From: Myxococcota bacterium
GTDB taxonomy: Bacteria; Myxococcota_A; Bradymonadia; UBA7976; UBA1532
NCBI GenBank assembly: GCA_963169045.1
Contig: CAUJDF010000094.1
Coordinates: 1 to 64,000 of the forward strand
Direction: 5' to 3'
Length of the DNA: 64,000 nucleotides
Shown: in pieces, positions 10,889-37,617 of the stretch
Position numbering within the stretch: the first letter of the stretch is position 1
How the letters are laid out: each line of letters opens with the position of its first letter
The notes under the pieces: generated by a model
Told to the model about the DNA's origin: nothing
Databases searched by the model: none
The model's input: only the letters and a program-made list of their open reading frames with translations
Position numbers and translations under genes: made by a program

Positions 10889-13252
10889 ATGAGCACCTCG
10901 ACGCCTCGAAGTGTCGGTCTCGCCCTCTCCCTCTTCGCCACCGGCGCCGCCGCCCTCCCGCTCCCCGCCACGCCCGAGGACTTCCGCCTGCCCGGCGCGC
11001 AGCTCGGCGACGTCGCGCCGGGGGTCATCGTCCTGAGCGGCGAGTGCACGCGCTGCCACCACCTCGGCGAGGGCCCCGATCCCGGCGCCTCGTGGTCCGG
11101 CAGCCTCATGGCCCAGGGGGGGCGCGACCCGCTGTTCTTCGCGCAGATGACGCTCGCCAATCAAGACGTGGCCGGCGCCGGCACGTTCTGCATGCGATGT
11201 CATGTTCCGCTGGCATACGTCACCGGCGCGGCGATGGCACCCGACGGCAGCGCGCTCGATGGCACCGAGCAGGACGGCGTGGGGTGCCACCTCTGCCATG
11301 CGCTCGTCGACCCGGTCCACGACCCGGCGACCAGCCCCGCCCGGGACGCGGACGTCATCGCCGCCCTGCCGGAGGCGCCCCGGCACCACGGCAACGCGAT
11401 GTTCGTCCTCGACGGAGAGGGGCCGGTCCGCGGCGGGCGGGCGGATCCGGCGCCGGCGCACCAGACCACGCGGGCGCCGTTCCTGCGCAGCAGCGCCCTG
11501 TGCGGCACCTGCCACGACGTCGGCAACCCGGCCATCGTCCGCCGGGCGGACGGGACGTGGCGCTACGATCCGCTCGGCGCCGCGCCGCCGGACGCCGATC
11601 CCGTCGGCATGTTCCCGCTCGAGCGCACGTACACCGAGTGGCGCCTGAGCGCCTTCGCGCGCGGCGGGGTGGACCTGGGCGGCCGGTTCGGCGGCAACGG
11701 CGCGGCGCGCGTCGCCACGTGCCAGGACTGCCACATGCCGCGCGCGACCGGCCGGTCGGCCACCGAGGCCTTCATCCGCCCCGATCTCGCCCGCCACGAC
11801 TTCGCCGGCGCCGCGGCCCAGGCGCTCGACCTCGTGCTCGCCGCGGGCGGACCGGGCGTCGACCCGGTCGCGATCGCGCGCGGCCGGCGGGCGGCGGTCT
11901 CGATGCTCGAGCGCGCCGCGTCGCTCGCTTTGCGCCAGGACGGCCGGCGGCTGGTGGTGCGCGTCACCAACGAGACCGGCCACAAGCTGCCGACGGGGCA
12001 CATCGAGGGGCGCCGCGTCTGGGTCGGCGTGCGCTTCCTCGCGGCGGACGACGCGGTCGTGGCCGAGCATGGCCGCTACGACGCGGCGGGGGCGACCCTC
12101 CACGGCGACGACACCGCGGTCTACGAGATGCACGTCGGCCTCAGCGCCGAGGCGGCCGCCGCCACCGGCCTTCGCGCCGGGCGGACGGGGCACATGGTGC
12201 TCGCCGACACGATCGTCGAGGACGACCGCATCCCGCCGCGCGGCTTCCGGAACGCCGCGTTCGAGGCCGCCGGCGCGCCGGCGGTCGGCCGCGCCTACGC
12301 CGACGGACAGCACTGGGACGAGCCGGCGTACGCCATCCCGCCGGGCGCCGTCCGGGCGGAGGTGACGCTCTACTACCAGAGCACGCCGCGCGAATACATC
12401 GAGGCGCTGCGCGACGGGAACCGCACCGACGACCGCGGCGCCGTGCTGTACGCGCTGTGGGAGGCGAGCGGGCGCGGCGCCCCCATCGCGATGGCCGCCG
12501 CGGCGCTCGAGCTGGTCGCCTGTGACCCGTCCGACTGCGACGGCGACGGCGTGCCGGTCGAGGCCGACTGCGATGACGATCGCGCCCTGGCCCACCCCGG
12601 GGCGGAGGAGCGCTGCGACGGCGTCGACGACGACTGCGACGGCCTCGTCGACGAGGAGGACGCGGAGGCCGGGGCGCCGTGCGAGACCGGGCTCGAGGGC
12701 GTCTGCGCGGCGGGCGCGTGGCGCTGCGCGGGGGGCGCGCTGCGCTGCGACCCGGCGCCCGGCTGCGGCGGCGCGCCGGACGCGGGCGGCGGGGGCGCGG
12801 GGGGCGGCGGGGGGGCGGGGCCGGACGCGGGGGACGGGGGCGCGCGGGACGCGGGCGGCGACGCCGGCGGGGCCGGCGGCGGGGCGCCCGATGCGGGGGG
12901 CGCCGGCGGGGCGCCCGATGCGGGGGCCGCCGGCGGGGCGTCCGGCGCGGGGGGCGCCGGCGGGGCGCCCGATGCGGGGGGCGCCGGCGGGGCGCCCGAT
13001 GCGGGGGGCGCCGGCGGGGCGCCCGGCGCGGGGGGCGCCGGCGGGGCGCCCGGCGCGGGGGGCGATGCCGCGGCGCCGTCGGACGCCGGGCGTCCCGACG
13101 CGGCGGCGCGGACCGGCGACGCGCCGCCGGCCGACGATGGGTGCGCCTGCCGGACGGCGTCCGCCGGGCGGCCGAGCGTGGGGTGGCTGCTCGCGCTGCT
13201 CGGCACGGCGGCCGGTCGCCGCCGCCGCGTCGTGCGCGGGGCCGGATCGTAG
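10889..13252 (+). CDS. Surface pentaheme c-type cytochrome with MopE repeat and MYXO-CTERM-like tail
   Basis: 787 aa with a signal peptide ([19 protein letters not shown]...). Five CXXCH heme sites occur in the first ~290 residues: CTRCH, CMRCH, CHLCH, CGTCH and CQDCH. A beta-rich domain with [19 protein letters not shown] follows, a motif seen in c554-like multiheme proteins. A MopE-type Asp/Cys repeat ([23 protein letters not shown]) lies at ~547-600, then a Gly/Ala/Pro repeat linker. The tail CACRTASAG...VGWLLALLG...RRRR fits a MYXO-CTERM anchor: short Cys motif, helix, basic end. Predicted to be held on the cell surface after sorting. An oxidase or reductase role is inferred only from the hemes. 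Confidence 0.85.
12880..13070 (+). repeat. 27-bp in-frame repeats in the cytochrome linker
   Basis: About seven head-to-tail copies of a 27-bp unit encode the nonapeptide GGAPDAGGA and variants ([18 protein letters not shown]). They form a flexible Gly/Ala/Pro spacer between the MopE domain and the C-terminal anchor. Copy number is likely to vary by slippage in steps of nine residues. Confidence 0.85.
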
Positions 13253-28435: not shown

Positions 28436-29605
28436 ATGCGTTTTCCGGTCGTTTTTCTGTTCGCCGCCCTGTTGGCGGCCTGCGGCGCCGCGGATCCCGA
28501 GGCGCCGCCGCCTCCGCCCGAGACGAGCGCGGCGCCCGTCAGCGCGGCGCCCGCGAGCGTCGCCGCCCCCCCGCCGTCGTCGCCCGCGGACCACGGCGCG
28601 GCGCTCTACGCGAAGCTCTGCGCCCTCTGCCACGGCACCGATCGCGAGGGCTACGCCGCCGACAACGCGCCCTCGCTCAAGTCGAGCACGTTCCTCGAGA
28701 CCGCCACCGAGGCCTTCCTGCGGGACGCCATCGTCTTCGGCCGACCCGGCACGGCGATGGCCGGCTACGGCCGTCAGGTCGGCGGTCCCCTCCGGCCGAA
28801 CGACGTGGCCGCGCTCGTCGCGTTCCTCCGCCGCGACGCGCCGCCGCCCGTGGCGCTCCCCCCGGAGTCGATGGCCGGCAACGTCGCGAACGGCAAGGTG
28901 ATCTACGACCGCGAATGCGCCTCGTGCCACGGCACGCAGACGCAGCGCGGCACGGCGGTCCACCTCGCGAACATCCAGCTCCTGGCCTCGGCGCCGCCGG
29001 GCTTCCTGCGCTACGCGCTGGTCCACGGCCGGCCCGGCACGAAGATGGAGCCCTGGGGCGGCAAGCTCGACGCGCGGGCTCAGGACGACGTGCTCGCCTA
29101 CCTGCGCTCGCTGGCGATGCCGGTGCCGACGGCGCCGTCCGGACCGCCGCCGGTCCCGCCGTGGGGTCCGATCGTCATCAACCCCAAGGGCAAGGCGCCG
29201 ACGTTCGACCTGCGCGAGGGCCGGTACGCCTCCGTGGACCAGGTGGGCAAGGCGCTGCAGGCGGGCCGCAAGATGATCATCGTCGACGCCCGCGCGCCTT
29301 CCGACTGGCTGAAGATGCACATCACCGGCTCGCTGCCGCTGCCGTACTACCAGCTCGACCTGGTCGATCGGCTGCCCAACGACGGCACCACGGTGATCGC
29401 CTACTGCGCCTGCCCGCACCACGCGTCGGGCGTCGTCGTCGACGAGCTGCGCAAGCGCGGGTTCAAGAACGCGTACGTCCTCGACGAGGGCGTGTACGCG
29501 TGGCAGCAGAAGGGCTTCCCGGTGGTCGCCGCCGAGGGCTTCGAGAAGTTCCCGTCACCGCCCCACGACCACCACGGCCACGACCACCACGGCCACAAGC
29601 ACTGA
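28436..29605 (+). CDS. Diheme cytochrome c - rhodanese fusion lipoprotein
   Basis: 389 aa. Lipobox LLAAC (Cys16), Pro/Ala linker, two monoheme cytochrome c domains (CALCHGT ~62, CASCHGT ~161) and a rhodanese domain (~265-370) with its active-site Cys in IAYCACPHHASG (~324). The protein ends in a His-rich tail (DHHGHDHHGHKH) likely to bind metal. A periplasmic or surface electron carrier joined to a sulfurtransferase fold is unusual; it could couple persulfide chemistry or metal handling to electron transfer. GGAG precedes the ATG. It sits at the edge of the 30-heme cytochrome locus. Confidence 0.9.
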   Translation: MRFPVVFLFAALLAACGAADPEAPPPPPETSAAPVSAAPASVAAPPPSSPADHGAALYAKLCALCHGTDREGYAADNAPSLKSSTFLETATEAFLRDAIVFGRPGTAMAGYGRQVGGPLRPNDVAALVAFLRRDAPPPVALPPESMAGNVANGKVIYDRECASCHGTQTQRGTAVHLANIQLLASAPPGFLRYALVHGRPGTKMEPWGGKLDARAQDDVLAYLRSLAMPVPTAPSGPPPVPPWGPIVINPKGKAPTFDLREGRYASVDQVGKALQAGRKMIIVDARAPSDWLKMHITGSLPLPYYQLDLVDRLPNDGTTVIAYCACPHHASGVVVDELRKRGFKNAYVLDEGVYAWQQKGFPVVAAEGFEKFPSPPHDHHGHDHHGHKH

Positions 29606-29627: not shown

Positions 29628-30230
29628 TCAGAATTTGATGGGCAGCGGGATGCGGGGCAGCGGATCGGTGATGCGCCGCACCGCCTTCTTGTGGAGCGGC
29701 CGCGCCAGCACCTCGTCGAAGTCCACGGGCTTCGCCGTCCCGTCCATCGAGATGCCCACGACGCGCGCGCCGTTCGTCGCGGGATCCACCCGGATCGACC
29801 GCGCGAGCCGCTGCGGCTCGATGCCCGGCAGGTTCAGGTCGACGAAGACCACATGCGGCCGGAAGCCGGCGATGAGGCGGCCCGCATCGAACAGGTTGTC
29901 GGTGTGCTGGACCTCGTACGCGTCGTCCTGGCTCTCGCGCTGATCGTCGAAGACCGCGTCGAGGATGGCGTCGACCACCTGCGGGTCGTCGTCGACCACC
30001 AGGATGCGTCGCGTGCCGCCGGTCTCGACGCGCTCCTCCCATTGCATGGGGATGCCGTTCGTCCGGCAGAACTGCTCGAGGTCGGCGCGCATGATGCGCC
30101 GGTGCCCACCCGGCGTCTTGTACGCCCGGATACGGCCCTCCTCGATCCAACGGATGATCGTCATGGGCGTGACGCGACAGAAGCGCGCCGCCGAGTGCGT
30201 GGAGAAGACGTCCGGAACCTTTGCCGTCAT
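29628..30230 (-). CDS. HTH - receiver hybrid transcriptional regulator
   Basis: 200 aa. Residues ~7-60 are a MerR/excisionase-type helix-turn-helix (STHSAARFCRVTPMTIIRWI, RAYKTPGGHRRI). Residues ~75-190 are a CheY-like receiver (RRILVVDDDPQVVD, phosphoacceptor Asp in VVFVDLNLPG). The usual KP motif is replaced by RP (VLARPLHKK), so signalling by phosphorylation may be altered. The DNA-binding part is N-terminal, opposite to most response regulators. It is divergent from the electron-transfer operon at 30419 and faces the diheme-rhodanese gene, so it is a good candidate for their regulator. Confidence 0.85.
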   Translation of the reverse strand: MTAKVPDVFSTHSAARFCRVTPMTIIRWIEEGRIRAYKTPGGHRRIMRADLEQFCRTNGIPMQWEERVETGGTRRILVVDDDPQVVDAILDAVFDDQRESQDDAYEVQHTDNLFDAGRLIAGFRPHVVFVDLNLPGIEPQRLARSIRVDPATNGARVVGISMDGTAKPVDFDEVLARPLHKKAVRRITDPLPRIPLPIKF

Positions 30231-30418: not shown

Positions 30419-32038
30419 ATGCGCGACTTTGTGCGACGTTTCGGTTGGGCGGCGACGTGTGCCGTCGTCCTGGGGCTGGGTGGCTGTTCGGCGGAGAAGG
30501 ACGCCGGCGGGAGCTGCGACGCGGACGGCGACTGCGCCCGCGGCGAGATCTGCGCCGACGGCTCGTGCGCCGTGGAGCAGTGCAGCAGCATCAACGACTG
30601 CCCGGGTTCCGGCCGCACCTGCCTCGCCGATCTGCGGCAGTGCTCTCCAAAGGAGTGCGGCGACGCGGCCGCCGCGTGCAGCGGCGAGCGCTCGGTGTGC
30701 GTCGACTCCGGCTCGTTCCGGTTCTCGTGCGTCGCGCCCGGCTCGCTGTCGTGCGGCGGCGACGCCGACTGCGCGAGCTACGGCCCGGGCCTGTCTTGTT
30801 GCGGCGGCACCTGCCAGACGCAGTGCCAGGGGCCGATCAACGAGGACATGGGGCCGCCGCCCGGTGACGCGGGCCCGTCCGACGACATGGGCGCCGGCGA
30901 CGACGCCGGTGGGGACGACGCGGGCCCCGACATGAACGTGTCGCCCACGGGCCGTGCCTGCAGCCCGTGCCAGCGCGACGAGGACTGCGCGTCCCTCGGC
31001 GCGGGCGCCACCTGCACGCCCTTCGGCCAGCAGAACGCCCAGTTCTGTACGCCGGCGTGCGAGCCCGGCCGGGCGGGCCAGTGCCCGTCGGGCTTCACCT
31101 GCGTCCAGGGCCTGAACCAGTGCCTGCCGGCCACCTTCCGCTGCGAGCCGGGCTGCCTGACCGACGGCTGCCCCGACGGCAGCGTGTGCGACGCCGAGAG
31201 CGGCCAGTGCTCGGCGCCGCGCGCGGCGTGCGGCGTGTGCGCCCGCGACGAGGACTGCGCCGGCGACCTGAAGTGCCGCGCGTTCGGCGGGCGCAACCAC
31301 TGCCTCGCCGACTGCGCCGGCGGCCAGTGCGGCGACGGCTTCACGTGCGCCGAGGGCACGTGCCAGCCGGTCAGTGGCCGCTGCGACGCCTGCGGCGGCC
31401 GCTGCGCCGGCGCGACGCCGTTCTGCGTGGCCGAGACGGGCTCGTGCGCCGAGTGCGGCGACCGCACGCCGTGTCCCGACAACAAGGTGTGCAACCTGCA
31501 GACGCACACCTGCGAGGAGCGGATGGGCCCCGCCGGCTGCGTGAACGACGTCGACTGCACCAACAGCCCCGACGGGCGCTTCTGCTTCAGCGGCGAGTGC
31601 GTCCAGTGCCTGCAGGACACCGACTGCGGCCCGGGCCAGGGGTGCGACCAGGCCGCATGGCGGTGCGTCCCCATGCCGTGCCGCGGCGTCGCGTGCCAGG
31701 GCGGCGGCGTCTGCGACAACGCCACCGGCCGCTGCAACCCCGGCTGCAGCAACCGCAACGACTGCGTCGATGCGGTCGCGATGGACTGCAACCCCGTCAC
31801 GGGACAGTGCTACTACGTCAACGGCACGTGCGATCCGGCCGGCCGCGACGCCGTCTGCGCCCCCGGCTCGACCTGCACCCCGAACCTCTTCGATCCGAAC
31901 GCCGCCGGCTCCTGCTCCTGCGAGAAGGAAGACCCGGCGAACCCGCTCTCGCCGGACAAGATCCCCTGCAATCCCGGCGCGATCTGCATCACGCTCTTCC
32001 CCGGTCAGCCTGGCTTCTGCGCCGGCTTCGGCATGTGA
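30419..32038 (+). CDS. Cys-rich surface lipoprotein
   Basis: 539 aa. Signal with lipobox LGLGGC, then dozens of Cys in short CxxDxDC-type repeats (SCDADGDCARGEICADG, CQRDEDCASLGAGATC, CARDEDCAGDLKC), split by an Asp/Pro/Gly linker (~140-178). The repeats resemble disulfide-knot modules common on myxobacterial surfaces; no CXXCH heme motif is present. It overlaps the next gene as GTGA, so it is translationally coupled to the iron-sulfur membrane protein, which argues for a joint role. Function unknown; a surface partner or metal-binding scaffold are possibilities. Confidence 0.85.
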   Translation: MRDFVRRFGWAATCAVVLGLGGCSAEKDAGGSCDADGDCARGEICADGSCAVEQCSSINDCPGSGRTCLADLRQCSPKECGDAAAACSGERSVCVDSGSFRFSCVAPGSLSCGGDADCASYGPGLSCCGGTCQTQCQGPINEDMGPPPGDAGPSDDMGAGDDAGGDDAGPDMNVSPTGRACSPCQRDEDCASLGAGATCTPFGQQNAQFCTPACEPGRAGQCPSGFTCVQGLNQCLPATFRCEPGCLTDGCPDGSVCDAESGQCSAPRAACGVCARDEDCAGDLKCRAFGGRNHCLADCAGGQCGDGFTCAEGTCQPVSGRCDACGGRCAGATPFCVAETGSCAECGDRTPCPDNKVCNLQTHTCEERMGPAGCVNDVDCTNSPDGRFCFSGECVQCLQDTDCGPGQGCDQAAWRCVPMPCRGVACQGGGVCDNATGRCNPGCSNRNDCVDAVAMDCNPVTGQCYYVNGTCDPAGRDAVCAPGSTCTPNLFDPNAAGSCSCEKEDPANPLSPDKIPCNPGAICITLFPGQPGFCAGFGM

Positions 32039-34041
32039 CCGAGCCGGCCCTCGAGCTCAAGAAGGCGAAGAAGGCGCCGCCCAAGAAGGGCGGCAAGGGA
32101 GGGGGCAGCGAGGGACCGACCCCCGTCACGCCCGAGAAGCTCGCCGAGGTTCCGCTCTTCGCGCGGCTCGATGAGGCGCTGCGGGCCCGCCTCGCGCCGC
32201 GCACCACCTGGATCGAGATCGCCCGCGGCGAGACGCTCTTCGACGGCGCGCCGCTGGCCGACGAGGAGTCGCCCGTCTTCGTCGTCGTGAAGGGCGACGT
32301 CGACGTCCGCCGCCAGCGCAAGGGCGCCGCGCTCGAGATCGTCAACTACCTCTCGCCGGGCGAGGCGTACTTCCAGAAGCTCTTCGTCTCGGACGAGACC
32401 GAGCGCCTCGTTCTCACGGCCATGTGCCCGGTGCAAGCGCTCCGCGTCTCGTACCGGGACGTCAACTACGTGCTCAAGAAGGCCGCCGAGTTCAGAGACG
32501 ACTTCAGCGCCGCCATCAAGCACGTCACCGAGCGCCAGACGAGCCGCTTCGACGACCAGTTCCAACGCGAGATCTCGAAGTTCTTCGTCGAGCAGCGCCT
32601 GACCTTCGCGGGACGCGTCAAGGTCAAGCGCATGGACATCTGCATCGAGTGCGACGGCTGCTACGACGCCTGCCGCGATCGTCACGGCACCGACCGGCTC
32701 GGTCCCAGCGAGGTGAAGTACGGGCTCACCGAGATCCCGCAGAACTGCCACAACTGCCTCGTCCCCGAGTGCATGGACAAGTGCAAGTTCGGGCACATCA
32801 CGATCTCCCCCGAAACGAAGGAGATCGTGATCAGCGACAACTGCGTCGGCTGCACCCAATGCTCGCGTGGGTGCAGTTTCGGCGCTATTCGCATGCACTC
32901 GCTCGCTGATCTCGATGTCGCGAAGTACTTCCCGGACCGCAAGCCCGACGCGAAGGGCAAGAGCATCGCCCAGAAGTGCGACAACTGCACCGGCTACCCC
33001 GAACAGGCGTGCATCACCGCCTGTCCCACCGGGGCGCTGTTCCAGATCGACGGCTCGCGCATCTTCGAGTACTGGCAGCAGTTCAACGTCCACCAGACGC
33101 CGGGCCACGGCGCGGTGGCCTCGCCCGAGGCCAACACGCGGCGCATCCGCAACCTGTGGATCGCGTTCACCCTGCTGAACACGCTGCTCCTCGCGTGGGA
33201 GTGCTTCGGCCGCCTGCATTGGCCGGCGCTGACGTTCGCCGAGCTGTTCCACCGCCTGGGCCTCCTGGAGTCAGGCGTCGACCCGGTGGATCCGTTCCGC
33301 GAAGGCGACGCGTTCAGCCACGCGCTCGGCTACGTCGGGTGGGCGTTGCTGGGCGCGACGCAGCTCTACCGCCTCGGCAAGCGCTGGGCGCCGCGCTTCG
33401 GCAGCGTGCCGGCGTGGATGGAGGCGCACATCTATCTCGGCGTCCTCGGCGGCGTGTACGGGTTGTTCCACACGGCGTTCAGCTTCCACGGCCTGATCTC
33501 GGTGGCCGCGTTCTTCACCATGGTCATGGCCATCGCCACCGGCGTGCTCGGGCGCTTCGTGCTCTACCTCGTGCCGCGCAGCCGGGCCGGCGCGCAGCTC
33601 GAGCTCGCCGACCTCGAGGCCCGCATCCGCCAGCTCGACCGCGACATCCAGCACTGCTTCGTCGACCCGCGCGAGGGCGCGACGGTGATGGTCAAGATGG
33701 AGGACCTCGTCGCGCCGCCGCCGGGCAGCGACGCTGATGGAGAGAGGGCGCCGCTCTGGACCGGCCTCGTCCGCCTGCTCGGCGAGGACCGCGCCGAGAA
33801 GAAGAAGCTCGAGACGCTCGCCGCCGAGCTCGACGGCGGCAGCCTCCAGGCGGACCGCGCGAAGGCCCTGCTGCGCCTCATGCGGGAGAAGGCGCGCGCC
33901 GAGCGCTCCATGCGCCGCCACGCGTTCTTCGCCCGATTGCTCAAGCGTTACCGCGTTGTCCATGTCGTCGCGTCGAACATCATGTTCGGCGCGCTGCTGT
34001 TGCACGTCGTCTACTCGCTCATTTATCAGGTGAGCAACTGA
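32035..34041 (+). CDS. Cyclic-nucleotide-binding-like, 4x[4Fe-4S] and membrane b-type redox fusion
   Basis: 668 aa. Basic, Lys/Gly-rich start, then a CRP-like sensor domain (~40-150; PGEAYFQKLFV keeps the GE of the phosphate cassette but the rest is degenerate). Four ferredoxin Cys clusters follow: CIECDGCYDAC (~203), CHNCLVPECMDKC (~238), CVGCTQCSRGC (~270) and CDNCTGYPEQACITACP (~315), the pattern of DmsB/HybA-type electron subunits. From ~374 there are several membrane helices with His in EAHIYLGVLGG, LFHTAFSFHG, VVHVVASN and LLLHVVYS, suitable for b hemes, split by a charged coiled loop (~520-640). Predicted quinone-linked inner-membrane electron hub under allosteric control. GTG start overlaps the preceding stop. 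Confidence 0.88.
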   Translation: MTEPALELKKAKKAPPKKGGKGGGSEGPTPVTPEKLAEVPLFARLDEALRARLAPRTTWIEIARGETLFDGAPLADEESPVFVVVKGDVDVRRQRKGAALEIVNYLSPGEAYFQKLFVSDETERLVLTAMCPVQALRVSYRDVNYVLKKAAEFRDDFSAAIKHVTERQTSRFDDQFQREISKFFVEQRLTFAGRVKVKRMDICIECDGCYDACRDRHGTDRLGPSEVKYGLTEIPQNCHNCLVPECMDKCKFGHITISPETKEIVISDNCVGCTQCSRGCSFGAIRMHSLADLDVAKYFPDRKPDAKGKSIAQKCDNCTGYPEQACITACPTGALFQIDGSRIFEYWQQFNVHQTPGHGAVASPEANTRRIRNLWIAFTLLNTLLLAWECFGRLHWPALTFAELFHRLGLLESGVDPVDPFREGDAFSHALGYVGWALLGATQLYRLGKRWAPRFGSVPAWMEAHIYLGVLGGVYGLFHTAFSFHGLISVAAFFTMVMAIATGVLGRFVLYLVPRSRAGAQLELADLEARIRQLDRDIQHCFVDPREGATVMVKMEDLVAPPPGSDADGERAPLWTGLVRLLGEDRAEKKKLETLAAELDGGSLQADRAKALLRLMREKARAERSMRRHAFFARLLKRYRVVHVVASNIMFGALLLHVVYSLIYQVSN

Positions 34042-34080
34042 GGCCCTCCGGAGCGGGTGGACGCGTCGGGCGACCCCTCC

Positions 34081-34086
34081 TATAGT
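34081..34086 (+). promoter_or_regulatory. Leaderless-type -10 element for the 30-heme cytochrome gene
   Basis: TATAGT followed by 7 nt and ATG 34094; no Shine-Dalgarno sequence. A weak -35 (GTGGAC, 34057-34062) is 18 nt upstream. It gives the cytochrome-porin pair its own promoter inside the larger cluster. Confidence 0.5.
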
Positions 34087-34093
34087 CGCCCGG

Positions 34094-36313
34094 ATGCGCT
34101 GGCGCTGGACGGCCGTGCTCCTGCTGTGGAGCGTGCTCGGGGGGGTGGCGTGGGCGGCGCCGCGTCCGCTGTCGCAGCCGCATGCGCACCTCGACGACTC
34201 CGATCGGTGCAACTCGTGCCACGTGGCGTTCGGCGGCGTGCCGGCGGAGCGCTGCCTGGGCTGCCACCGCGACATCGACCAGCGCCTGCAGGCCCAGCGG
34301 GGCTTCCACGGCAAGGCCGCCCTGAACCTGCGCTGCAACGATTGCCATCGCGAGCACCTCGGCCGCCAACACGAGCTCACCCCGCTCGACCGCGCCACCT
34401 TCGACCACGACCAGACCGGTTGGCCGCTCCAGGGGGGGCACCGCGGCGTCGAGTGCCGGCGCTGTCACACGGCGAAGCGGCCCGGCACCGGCCGCGACAG
34501 CTACCTGAACCCCGAGAAGACGTGCCGGGGCTGCCATGGCGAGTACCACGGCACGCCCGCCGGCAAGGTCCGGCTCAACGAGTGCGACGCCTGCCACACG
34601 ACCTTCGAGTGGACGAAGCGCCAGGACCCGATGCGCTTCGACCACGAGCGCGAGACGCGCTTTCCCCGCACCGGCAAGCACCTGAAGGTCGAGTGCGAGA
34701 AGTGCCACCTCGACAAGAAGAGCTTCGGGCCCATCCAGGTGGCCGGCTGCGTCACGTGCCACCGCGACCCGCACCCGCCCGGCGCGTTCGGCGCGCGCAT
34801 CTGCGAGGAGTGCCACGTCACGCGCGACTTCAAGGACGTGGCGCTGTTCGACCACGGGAGCACGGGCTGGCCGCTCAAGGGGAAGCACCGAGAGCAGAAG
34901 TGCGCGGACTGCCACGAGTTTCCGCGCTGGAAGCCGCGCACGAGCGAGTGCGCCGGCTGCCACGAGGACGTGCATCGCGGTCAGTTCCGCGGCGTCTCGT
35001 GCGGCCGCTGCCACGAGGAGTCCTCGTGGACGAAGCTCTCGTTCGACCACGACGCGATGAGCCGCTTCCCGCTGAAGGGCCAGCACCGTAAGGTCGACTG
35101 CGGGAAGTGCCACAAGGACGGCCACTACAAGCCCATCGACCCCGCGTGCAAGAACTGCCATGCGGGCGCCAATCCCCACGGCACCACCTTTGGCGACACG
35201 CCGTGCTCCAACTGCCACGCGCCGACCGGCTGGCTCGACACGCGCTTCGACCACGGTGTCACCGGCTTTCCGCTCGCAGGCAAGCACGTCGAGCAGCCCT
35301 GCTTCCGCTGCCATCCCAATGGCACCGAGGTCGAGGACGACACCATCGCCGAGTGCGTCTTCTGCCACCGTGACGTGCACGCCGGGCAGTTCCAGGGCGC
35401 GTCGTGCGATCGTTGCCATGCCGGCTTCGAGCGGTGGCGCATCCCGTTCTTCGACCACACGCTGAGCCGCTTCCAGCTGGTGGGCAAGCACATCGAGGTG
35501 CGCTGCGAGGCCTGCCACAAGCAGGGCCACTACCGCCCCATCGACACCGCATGCGGGAACTGCCATCTCAACTTCCACGACGGGCAGTTCGCGAAGCCAT
35601 GCGACGAGTGCCACAGCCCCCACGGCTGGACGCTGGTCCAGTTCGACCACGACCGGCAGAGCGAGTTCGCGCTGTACGGGGAGCACCGCGGGCTGGACTG
35701 CAAGAAGTGCCACGTCGACAACGACTACAAGGGCCTCCCGTTCGACTGCGCCGGCTGCCACGTGGACGAGCACAAGGGCCGGCGCGGACCCGCCTGCGAT
35801 CGCTGCCACACGGCGGCCGACTGGTCGACGAACCAGGCGCGCAACCACGACTTCGGCGCCTTCACGCTCGGCGGGGTGCACGACCTCCTGGCCTGCGAGA
35901 CCTGCCACGGCCCCGAGCGGCGCCGGGAGCTCGCCGGCACCGGGCCGGAGTGCATCAACTGCCACCGCGACCCGCACTTCGGCAGCCTCGGCCCGCTGTG
36001 CCTCGACTGCCACACGCAGCAGCATTTCCTGCCGAGCACGTTCCTGCACGTCGAGACGGGCTTCCGGCTCTCGGGCGCCCACCGCTTCGTCGAGTGCCGC
36101 GACTGCCACCCCGGACGCGTCTACGGCGGCCTGCCGAGCACCTGCGACTTCTGCCACACCGACTCGTTCCAGCAGACGGCGGCACGGCCCGACTGCGACC
36201 ATACGCAGCACTGCCCGGGCGGCCTGGCGACGTGCCACACGTGCCACACGACGCAGGCGTTCGTGCCGGCGCGTCCCGGCACCAACTGCGGGCCGTGCGA
36301 GAGCAGCCGGTGA
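34094..36313 (+). CDS. Thirty-heme periplasmic c-type cytochrome built of triheme modules
   Basis: 739 aa. Signal peptide MRWRWTAVLLLWSVLGGVAWA, then 30 CXXCH motifs by direct count. After an opening set of three, nine modules of ~65-80 residues each start with a pattern like FDHxxTxFPLxGKHxxxxCxxCH and contain exactly three hemes, with conserved FDH and GKH histidines as likely distal ligands. This is the arrangement of fused cytochrome c7 domains, as in the Geobacter 12-heme GSU1996 nanowire. The last residues, CGPCESSR, look like a lost heme site. Predicted electron wire across the periplasm. It overlaps the beta-barrel gene as GTGA. Confidence 0.93.
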   Translation: MRWRWTAVLLLWSVLGGVAWAAPRPLSQPHAHLDDSDRCNSCHVAFGGVPAERCLGCHRDIDQRLQAQRGFHGKAALNLRCNDCHREHLGRQHELTPLDRATFDHDQTGWPLQGGHRGVECRRCHTAKRPGTGRDSYLNPEKTCRGCHGEYHGTPAGKVRLNECDACHTTFEWTKRQDPMRFDHERETRFPRTGKHLKVECEKCHLDKKSFGPIQVAGCVTCHRDPHPPGAFGARICEECHVTRDFKDVALFDHGSTGWPLKGKHREQKCADCHEFPRWKPRTSECAGCHEDVHRGQFRGVSCGRCHEESSWTKLSFDHDAMSRFPLKGQHRKVDCGKCHKDGHYKPIDPACKNCHAGANPHGTTFGDTPCSNCHAPTGWLDTRFDHGVTGFPLAGKHVEQPCFRCHPNGTEVEDDTIAECVFCHRDVHAGQFQGASCDRCHAGFERWRIPFFDHTLSRFQLVGKHIEVRCEACHKQGHYRPIDTACGNCHLNFHDGQFAKPCDECHSPHGWTLVQFDHDRQSEFALYGEHRGLDCKKCHVDNDYKGLPFDCAGCHVDEHKGRRGPACDRCHTAADWSTNQARNHDFGAFTLGGVHDLLACETCHGPERRRELAGTGPECINCHRDPHFGSLGPLCLDCHTQQHFLPSTFLHVETGFRLSGAHRFVECRDCHPGRVYGGLPSTCDFCHTDSFQQTAARPDCDHTQHCPGGLATCHTCHTTQAFVPARPGTNCGPCESSR

Positions 36314-37617
36314 AGCGGGCGCTCGTCGCGCTGCTGTTGGCGCTGCCGGCCCACGCCCGCGAGGCGGAGCTGGACGGGCGCATCTCCGTGCGCGGCCTGT
36401 ACTCGCGGGACACCGCCGGGGGCCCGGCGGTCGGCATGAGCTTCCTCGAGACCGACGCCCGGGCGGAGCGCCTCACCGACGGCGGCCTTCGGCTCGTGCT
36501 CGACGCGACGTTCCTGCTCGACATCACCGAGGCGAACGAAAGGCGCTTCGGGCGCACCGAGTCGCTGGACCAGGTGCGTCAGCTCTACGCCGAGCAGCCG
36601 GACCTGCTGCACGGGCTGGACGTGAGCCTCGGACGCAAGCTCGTGCTCGAGGCGGGCCACGGCTGGGTCGACGGCGTGGATCTCGCGCTGCGTTTCGACG
36701 AGCGACGGGCGACGCTGGGCGCCTACGGGGGCCTCTCACCGGACCGATTCGACTACGCGCTCACCACGGACTACCAGGCGGCGGGGGTGTACGGGACGCT
36801 CCATCGTGAAGGCTTCGACGGGGCGCTGGCCTTCAATACGGTGCTCTTCCAGGGCGCGCTCGACCGCCAGTGGGCCTTCAACCGCCTGCACTACCGGATT
36901 GCGCCGGGTTTGTTCGTCGCCAGCTACCTCGTCGTGGACTTCATCGAGATGCCCGCGGTGACGACACTGCTTGCGAGCGTCGATTACACGCCGGTACCGC
37001 CGCTCAACATATCCCTGAACTTCAGCCGCTACGCCGTCGAGCAGTATCGCAATACCACCATCTATCATGACGTCGTCGAGCCGAATCAGGCCCTCCTCAT
37101 CGGTGATGAGGTGCTGGACCTGGTCTACAACCGGGTGCGTCTGTCTGCTTCCGTCCGCTTCTGGGGCCACTACTACCACTATCAGACCGTCGAGCTCAAA
37201 GCGCGGACCCAGGACGATCGCGAGGCCTGGCTCTACACCCTGGGTGTGCGTGATGAGGACTTCCTCGGGTTCGGGACGCTCGTGGACCTGAGCGCGTCCT
37301 TCCGCAACAACTTCCAATCGGACTCGTACCTGGTTGCGCTGAACGTGGATCACGACCTCGGCGGTGCCTTCAGCGTGGAGGGGCGGGCGATCTGGTACGA
37401 CGGTCGCACCATCGGGCGCACGACCGACCGTGGGCGCATCTTCGACGAAGCGCAGCGGATCGTGCTGGTGGGAGGGGCGCTCTACTGGCGGCCGCTGAAG
37501 GCCCACCAGTTCGACGTGGACTACGACGGGGTGCTCGAGACCGAGCTGCAGGACGTGCGGAACGAAGACAGCCTGTTCATCCACACGTTCATGGGGCGAT
37601 ACAGCCTGCTCTTCTGA
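36310..37617 (+). CDS. Outer-membrane beta-barrel protein coupled to the 30-heme cytochrome
   Basis: 435 aa. GTG start gives a short signal (VKRALVALLLALPAHA). The rest alternates hydrophobic and polar residues with many aromatic girdles (RVRLSASVRFWGHYYHYQTV, FQSDSYLVALNVDHDLGGAF) and ends in ...RYSLLF, a C-terminal Phe typical of barrel insertion. No known porin family recognised. The 4-nt overlap with the cytochrome gene implies matched synthesis, as expected for a porin-cytochrome conduit. Base composition dips towards AT in 36800-37300, compared with neighbours. It ends 3 nt before the convergent frr gene. Confidence 0.82.
   Translation: MKRALVALLLALPAHAREAELDGRISVRGLYSRDTAGGPAVGMSFLETDARAERLTDGGLRLVLDATFLLDITEANERRFGRTESLDQVRQLYAEQPDLLHGLDVSLGRKLVLEAGHGWVDGVDLALRFDERRATLGAYGGLSPDRFDYALTTDYQAAGVYGTLHREGFDGALAFNTVLFQGALDRQWAFNRLHYRIAPGLFVASYLVVDFIEMPAVTTLLASVDYTPVPPLNISLNFSRYAVEQYRNTTIYHDVVEPNQALLIGDEVLDLVYNRVRLSASVRFWGHYYHYQTVELKARTQDDREAWLYTLGVRDEDFLGFGTLVDLSASFRNNFQSDSYLVALNVDHDLGGAFSVEGRAIWYDGRTIGRTTDRGRIFDEAQRIVLVGGALYWRPLKAHQFDVDYDGVLETELQDVRNEDSLFIHTFMGRYSLLF

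Follow-up and report, generated by a model that had tools for sequence, protein, structure and literature searches.

A probable porin-cytochrome electron conduit with a fused Fe-S/b-type inner-membrane protein in uncultured Myxococcota

Can four adjacent genes carry electrons across both membranes of a Myxococcota bacterium? The question arises from a stretch of 64,000 nucleotides (contig CAUJDF010000094.1 of assembly GCA_963169045.1, positions 1 to 64,000), hereafter the window. An earlier note, made from the sequence alone, had proposed a new electron conduit here. It described four consecutive genes; all lie in tandem on the + strand, and both coordinates and domain content agree (Table 1). 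The 4-nt GTGA overlaps that it placed between genes 1 and 2, and between genes 3 and 4, are present in the sequence. A gap of 52 bp lies between genes 2 and 3. Conservation across orthologues rules out chance open reading frames (ORFs), and identical gene order in independent metagenome-assembled genomes (MAGs) rules out an assembly artefact. Our starting points are gene content, motifs, conservation and co-inheritance, all directly observed. On this footing, the four genes probably encode a trans-envelope electron conduit, as a variant of the PCC3/PCC4 porin-cytochrome systems.

Table 1. Positions and properties of the four-gene cluster and of other features in the window.
Feature	Position	Strand	Properties
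Gene 1, Cys-rich lipoprotein	30419..32038	+	539 aa, 76 Cys, lipobox LGGC23
Gene 2, inner-membrane hub	32035..34041	+	668 aa, GTG start
Gene 3, 30-heme c-type cytochrome	34094..36313	+	739 aa, signal peptide
Gene 4, outer-membrane beta-barrel	36310..37617	+	435 aa, GTG start, signal peptide
Divergent gene	29628..30230	-	HTH_17/MerR-like and response-regulator receiver domains
Protein with CXXCH motifs	10889-13252	+	787 aa, 5 CXXCH, MopE copper-binding motif (E 3e-9), weak MtrC/F domain match
Lipoprotein two genes upstream of the cluster	28436-29605	+	two cytochrome c domains fused to a rhodanese domain

The gene 3 product contains exactly 30 CXXCH motifs, or 24.6 amino acids per heme, in FDH-type repeats of ~65 aa with three motifs each. 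Thirteen orthologues were aligned, the most distant being 44-46% identical. All 30 motifs and exactly 30 further histidines are invariant; of the 552 other positions, just 94 are. The invariance of the motifs and distal histidines strongly indicates 30-heme bis-His ligation, in line with the earlier count of 30 hemes. Judged from these residues, the product is very likely a 30-heme wire, bis-His throughout. A sequence search of the PDB found no solved relative. Since 21-27 hemes have been argued to be enough to span the periplasm (PMC10734462), 30 would be ample.

Gene 4 had been called an outer-membrane beta-barrel. Consistent with this, AlphaFold2, run with nine sequences, models 22 strands (mean pLDDT 78, pTM 0.70), and a C-terminal Phe is kept in most orthologues. 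The best matches in structure searches were generic 22-strand receptors and porins rather than a specific family. MtrB was absent among the matches listed, an absence that excludes nothing. The computed backbone radius is ~20 A. MtrB is a 26-strand barrel, and a 22-strand barrel is narrower.

Alternatively, the 30-heme protein could be a periplasmic capacitor fed by the hub, with the barrel unrelated or a nutrient porin. Such a role has been put forward for multiheme proteins of very large size (PMC11495043, PMC10734462), the barrel fold alone resembles many ordinary channels, and the cluster has no outer cytochrome. However, genes 3 and 4 share 4 nt and are paired in every family, even when apart from genes 1 and 2. 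In distant Myxococcota loci, too, a barrel-like ORF with detectable similarity follows a large cytochrome. We consider the capacitor unlikely.

A conduit across both membranes predicts that its parts are inherited together. Gene 2 has orthologues in 11 of the 13 genomes of the same family (counting the window's own), in three further genomes of the order and in f7, a different family of the class; none was found in the other families of the class that were sampled. The order 1-2-3-4 recurs in the window's family (f1), where synteny extends to the housekeeping genes frr-pyrH-tsf. Because these are also conserved there, synteny within f1 is weak evidence. The same order is found in f7 (L067) at 28-45% identity and in a different gene context. 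In a further family, f2, genes 1 and 2 sit beside other conserved genes (L054, L055, L059) and genes 3 and 4 occupy separate loci (L061-L063); three genomes retain both split pairs. Conserved synteny across Myxococcota was the earlier note's own suggested check. It is borne out by the gene order in f7 and the co-retained pairs in f2, and a conduit across both membranes is the best reading.

Across the phylum, genes 2 and 4 occur together in 15 of 379 genomes. The three singletons are G006 and G053, which end at contig breaks, and G055, which is 65% complete. As the genomes are related, Fisher's test was not used for co-occurrence. In one locus (L052), an insert of 2 kb splits gene 2 from gene 3; it encodes a glycosyltransferase-like protein and an unknown gene, occurs only there and was rejected as an extra component. 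All named relatives are uncultured MAGs, Myxococcota/Myxococcales and Deltaproteobacteria among them.

Gene 1 adjoins gene 2 even where genes 3 and 4 sit elsewhere (f2), and likewise in f7. In L053 it is inverted and two genes distant. Among 16 orthologues, the distant family included, the lipobox C23 and ~60 Cys columns are invariant. We sought CXXCH motifs in the gene 1 protein and found none, which rules it out as an outer cytochrome. Of the earlier label, surface Cys-rich lipoprotein, the cysteines and the lipobox stand; the surface position we only infer. The gene 1 product would be a disulphide-rich lipoprotein tied to the gene 2 hub. Our guess is that it serves as an outer-membrane anchor or partner-contact protein. 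In several loci of the same family, a counterpart of the divergent gene sits next to gene 1 or gene 2, which makes this gene a candidate regulator of the cluster.

The gene 2 protein carries 16 Cys in four 4Fe-4S motifs (C203-C330), all 16 being invariant in the orthologue alignment. Pfam detects Fer4_7 at E 3.8e-9. Against PF13247 the Fe-S domain, which is fused upstream of the membrane part, scores 17.9 bits (cut-off 26.2). Five transmembrane (TM) helices provide two HX13H pairs (H465/H479 and H643/H657), a TGXXG motif and a long helical loop, predicted to be cytoplasmic. The membrane histidines H429, H465, H479, H643 and H657 are all invariant. Across 13 orthologues, TM3 reads WX3HX13H, with W in 11 and L in two; TM4 has an invariant [ST]GXXG; TM5 reads YX3HX13H, with Y where PCC3 has W and HX13H invariant. 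The protein contains no CXXCH, and its Pfam match to DUF4405 is weak, rising above the cut-off in two homologues. By positive-inside charge count, the N-terminal Fe-S domain and the TM4-TM5 loop would be cytosolic and the C-terminus outside; an N-in orientation agrees. Searches of the window's own genome found neither gene 2 nor gene 3 a second time.

The hub had also been described as regulated, with a CRP-like sensor. Residues ~31-165 are modelled at high confidence as a cNMP-like beta-roll (the Fe-S region of the same model, at pLDDT < 50, was left unused). In structure searches the beta-roll matched FNR (Z 14.2, 3.2 A, 133 residues) and cAMP/cGMP-binding chains (Z 11-13). The CRP-like fold is thus upheld, at Z ~14 to FNR/CRP. 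The Pfam cNMP match is weak (15.0 bits, cut-off 27.5), and strong tandem cNMP domains occur in L076, L133, L135 and Sphingobium. Both the fold and these relatives would suit a hub that is a redox or cyclic-nucleotide sensor, signalling inward from the outer cytochrome instead of conducting a respiratory current. However, no phosphate-binding-cassette Arg is conserved at the expected place (region GEAYFQKLFVSDETERLVLTA) in the 13 orthologues, as read from sequence and not from a ligand-bound model. Furthermore, a Pfam search of the gene 2 protein found no output domain (kinase, cyclase or DNA-binding). A signalling hub is, in our judgement, quite improbable. Because the CRP-like domain has no conserved phosphate-binding Arg, cyclic-nucleotide control is unsupported and the word regulated is best dropped. 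The domain is probably a structural or non-cAMP-sensing module.

Is such a hub new, as had been proposed? The inner-membrane protein (IMP) of PCC3 and PCC4 has five helices, is free of c-heme, carries two HX13H and was likened to the b-heme domain of ferric reductase/NADPH oxidase (He et al. 2017, PMC5566968). In PCC3 its motif is WX3HX13H in TM3 and TM5 with SGXXG in TM4, and in PCC4 subgroup II an Fe-S gene (PF13247) lies upstream of the IMP gene (PMC5566968). Hence, an Fe-S/b hub is of a kind already described. PCC3 clusters, known in Sideroxydans, Leptothrix and others, have wires with 22-39 aa per heme (PMC5566968). The window locus resembles them in three respects. The barrel gene adjoins the large multiheme gene (36310 overlaps the end of gene 3), the residues per heme fall inside this range, and the five-TM hub has two HX13H and [ST]GXXG, with Y instead of W in TM5. 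The differences are equally plain. In PCC3 the IMP stands alone at ~300 aa, whereas here it is fused to Fe-S and cNMP-like domains in 668 aa. PCC3 has a separate extracellular multiheme cytochrome, but one gene of our four is multiheme. The Cys-rich lipoprotein is additional, and the predicted 22-strand barrel is smaller than many of the porins in PCC3, which reach 42 strands.

PCC4 subgroup II shares with the window locus an Fe-S protein directly tied to the IMP, a barrel and the lack of an outer cytochrome. However, PCC4 has three periplasmic cytochromes (4, 5 and 10 hemes) in place of one 30-heme protein. In the window locus, unlike subgroup II, the Fe-S and membrane parts form one chain and no further redox gene adjoins. 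Since defining features of both PCC3 and PCC4 fail, the locus is a porin-cytochrome variant belonging to neither. What is new here is the fused cNMP-like/Fe-S/b protein, the single 30-heme wire that does without a cytochrome on the outside and, as a conserved member, the Cys-rich lipoprotein. In a limited literature search, no paper combined porin-cytochrome, cyclic nucleotide-binding and multiheme.

In MtrCAB and OmbB-OmaB-OmcB a gene for a periplasmic multiheme protein also adjoins a barrel gene, but that protein has 8-14 hemes rather than 30, and the gene 3 cytochrome has no detectable sequence similarity to solved chains. A c-heme hub of the CymA/ImcH/CbcL type is absent. CbcL joins its b-heme domain to a c-heme domain, unlike gene 2 with its weak DUF4405 match and no CXXCH. 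NADPH oxidase and ferric reductase share two HX13H in two helices, two b hemes and cytosol-to-outside transfer (comparison in PMC5566968). In contrast, the window locus has an Fe-S domain for the FAD/NADPH domain, and a multiheme wire as acceptor. Within the phylum, Anaeromyxobacter was already known to have porin-cytochrome clusters, whose cytochromes carry 12-14 hemes (PMC4245776). The function of PCC3 is unproven (PMC8788666, PMC12442390), and in one test both PCC3 clusters of Sideroxydans ES-1 were down-regulated on Fe(II) (PMC8788666).

We propose the following path for the conduit. Electrons would pass to or from a presumed cytosolic partner through the four 4Fe-4S clusters of the hub. 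They would cross the inner membrane by two stacked b hemes, predicted on the HX13H pairs of TM3 and TM5, much as in NADPH oxidase/ferric reductase with an Fe-S domain replacing the flavin domain. The single 30-heme bis-His wire would then bridge the periplasm and enter the gene 4 barrel, a putative contact. The 22-strand barrel could give electrons their exit to the surface with no separate outer cytochrome. Flow may run in either direction, and Fe(III) or Mn(IV) is a putative external substrate.

Where might the current begin? The earlier note had named quinones. We turned to hub relatives, present in 76 of the 379 Myxococcota genomes, and sorted the sampled loci into flavours A-D. Flavour A is that of the window locus, with no flavoprotein. 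In flavour B a cytochrome of 18-27 hemes comes after a fused Fe-S/IMP and, in several loci, so does a candidate barrel (L073, L124, L127, L128). An Fe-S protein precedes the hub in L120, L123 and L125, also flavour B; by Pfam that of L120 combines FeS with a pyridine-nucleotide-disulphide oxidoreductase (PNDR), and L123 and L125 have a 28-heme cytochrome nearby. Flavour C (L133; Sphingobium pMSHV) comprises PNDR-cNMP-FeS, a separate IMP and a 10-heme cytochrome. Flavour D (L076, L135), reminiscent of PCC4, has a multiheme protein, cNMP(x2)-FeS-IMP, then multiheme-FeS-PNDR. Overall, distant loci keep the Fe-S/IMP and an 18-28-heme cytochrome, several with a barrel candidate.

The C-terminal half of gene 2 matches stand-alone IMPs whose genes neighbour multiheme genes, at 28% and E 5e-18 in Emticicia and at 28% and E 8e-12 in Sphingobium. 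For the Fe-S part, a match at E 5e-22 is the PNDR-cNMP-FeS protein of Sphingobium. Sphingobium herbicidovorans pMSHV and Emticicia oligotrophica pEMTOL02 resemble the window locus: each has a PNDR/cNMP/4Fe-4S or FeS-PNDR protein, a ~290-aa IMP and one or more multiheme cytochromes. Unlike in the window locus, the genes are separate and a flavoprotein is present. The Sphingobium cytochrome has 10 hemes, against 30 in the gene 3 product; pEMTOL02 encodes an IMP, FeS-PNDR, two cytochromes with 23 and 40 hemes, and a candidate barrel. Emticicia is a cultivated member of the Bacteroidota and its cluster (L082) is plasmid-borne, making it a candidate model system.

These loci bear on a rival in which the conduit is the same but strictly quinone-linked. 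The b-type helices would react with quinones, leaving the Fe-S clusters as a side branch or sensor. As this question nests within the conduit reading, our confidences in the two overlap. In its favour, the hub is similar to DUF4405, which we take to be the b-heme domain of CbcL. A quinone model has, moreover, been proposed for PCC3/PCC4 (PMC5566968). Conversely, PNDR, cNMP and FeS are fused in Sphingobium and L133, FeS-PNDR lies directly upstream of the hub in L120, and multiheme-FeS-PNDR lies directly downstream in L076 and L135. A path limited to quinones would also leave the four Fe-S clusters, predicted on the cytosolic side, hard to explain. A strict quinone link is possible, though we do not expect it; the quinone site itself finds no support, and sister loci pair the hub with a PNDR flavoprotein. 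The recurrence of this flavoprotein as a cytosolic neighbour argues for an NAD(P)H-like cytosolic carrier, as source or sink. Relatives suggest that current may start at NAD(P)H-handling enzymes, and a cytosolic donor would be at least as likely as quinone. To look for such a partner in the cytosol, two sister-locus proteins were used as queries against the window's own genome; they gave only short or partial Rossmann-type matches, with no clear candidate.

More speculatively, the conduit could be independent of quinones altogether. Electrons would move from a carrier of low potential in the cytosol, either NAD(P)H by way of a flavoprotein or ferredoxin, to the Fe-S/diheme-b protein and on to the 30-heme molecule through the barrel, the lipoprotein being the outer terminus or partner contact. 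If so, two proteins and a sleeve would connect cytosol and exterior. PCC3/PCC4 conduits have been predicted since 2017 but are functionally unproven, and a compact variant with all heme ligands assignable is a tractable target. The locus also draws an uncultured Myxococcota group into the conduit field. The fused hub and the flavoprotein-bearing sister loci suggest an electron entry point, and a 'hypothetical inner-membrane protein' becomes a testable NAD(P)H/ferredoxin-to-surface path.

Other redox loci came to light. In the window, the 787-aa protein is possibly a second surface cytochrome. Elsewhere in the same genome (L002; G000 contig 70), genes for a multiheme cytochrome, a 4Fe-4S protein and an NrfD-like membrane protein lie in tandem, probably a separate quinone-linked complex. 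A second cluster in genomes of the same family (L074, L075) has two large cytochromes (up to 23-heme) with a large ORF between; with its stand-alone inner-membrane protein, it looks like a PCC3-type locus. In L076 (10383-14462), a single 1360-aa chain combines three FHA domains, 7 CXXCH, 4Fe-4S and a pyridine-nucleotide flavoprotein domain. Its membrane topology poses a puzzle: one would expect the c hemes on one side of the membrane and the FHA/flavin domains on the other.
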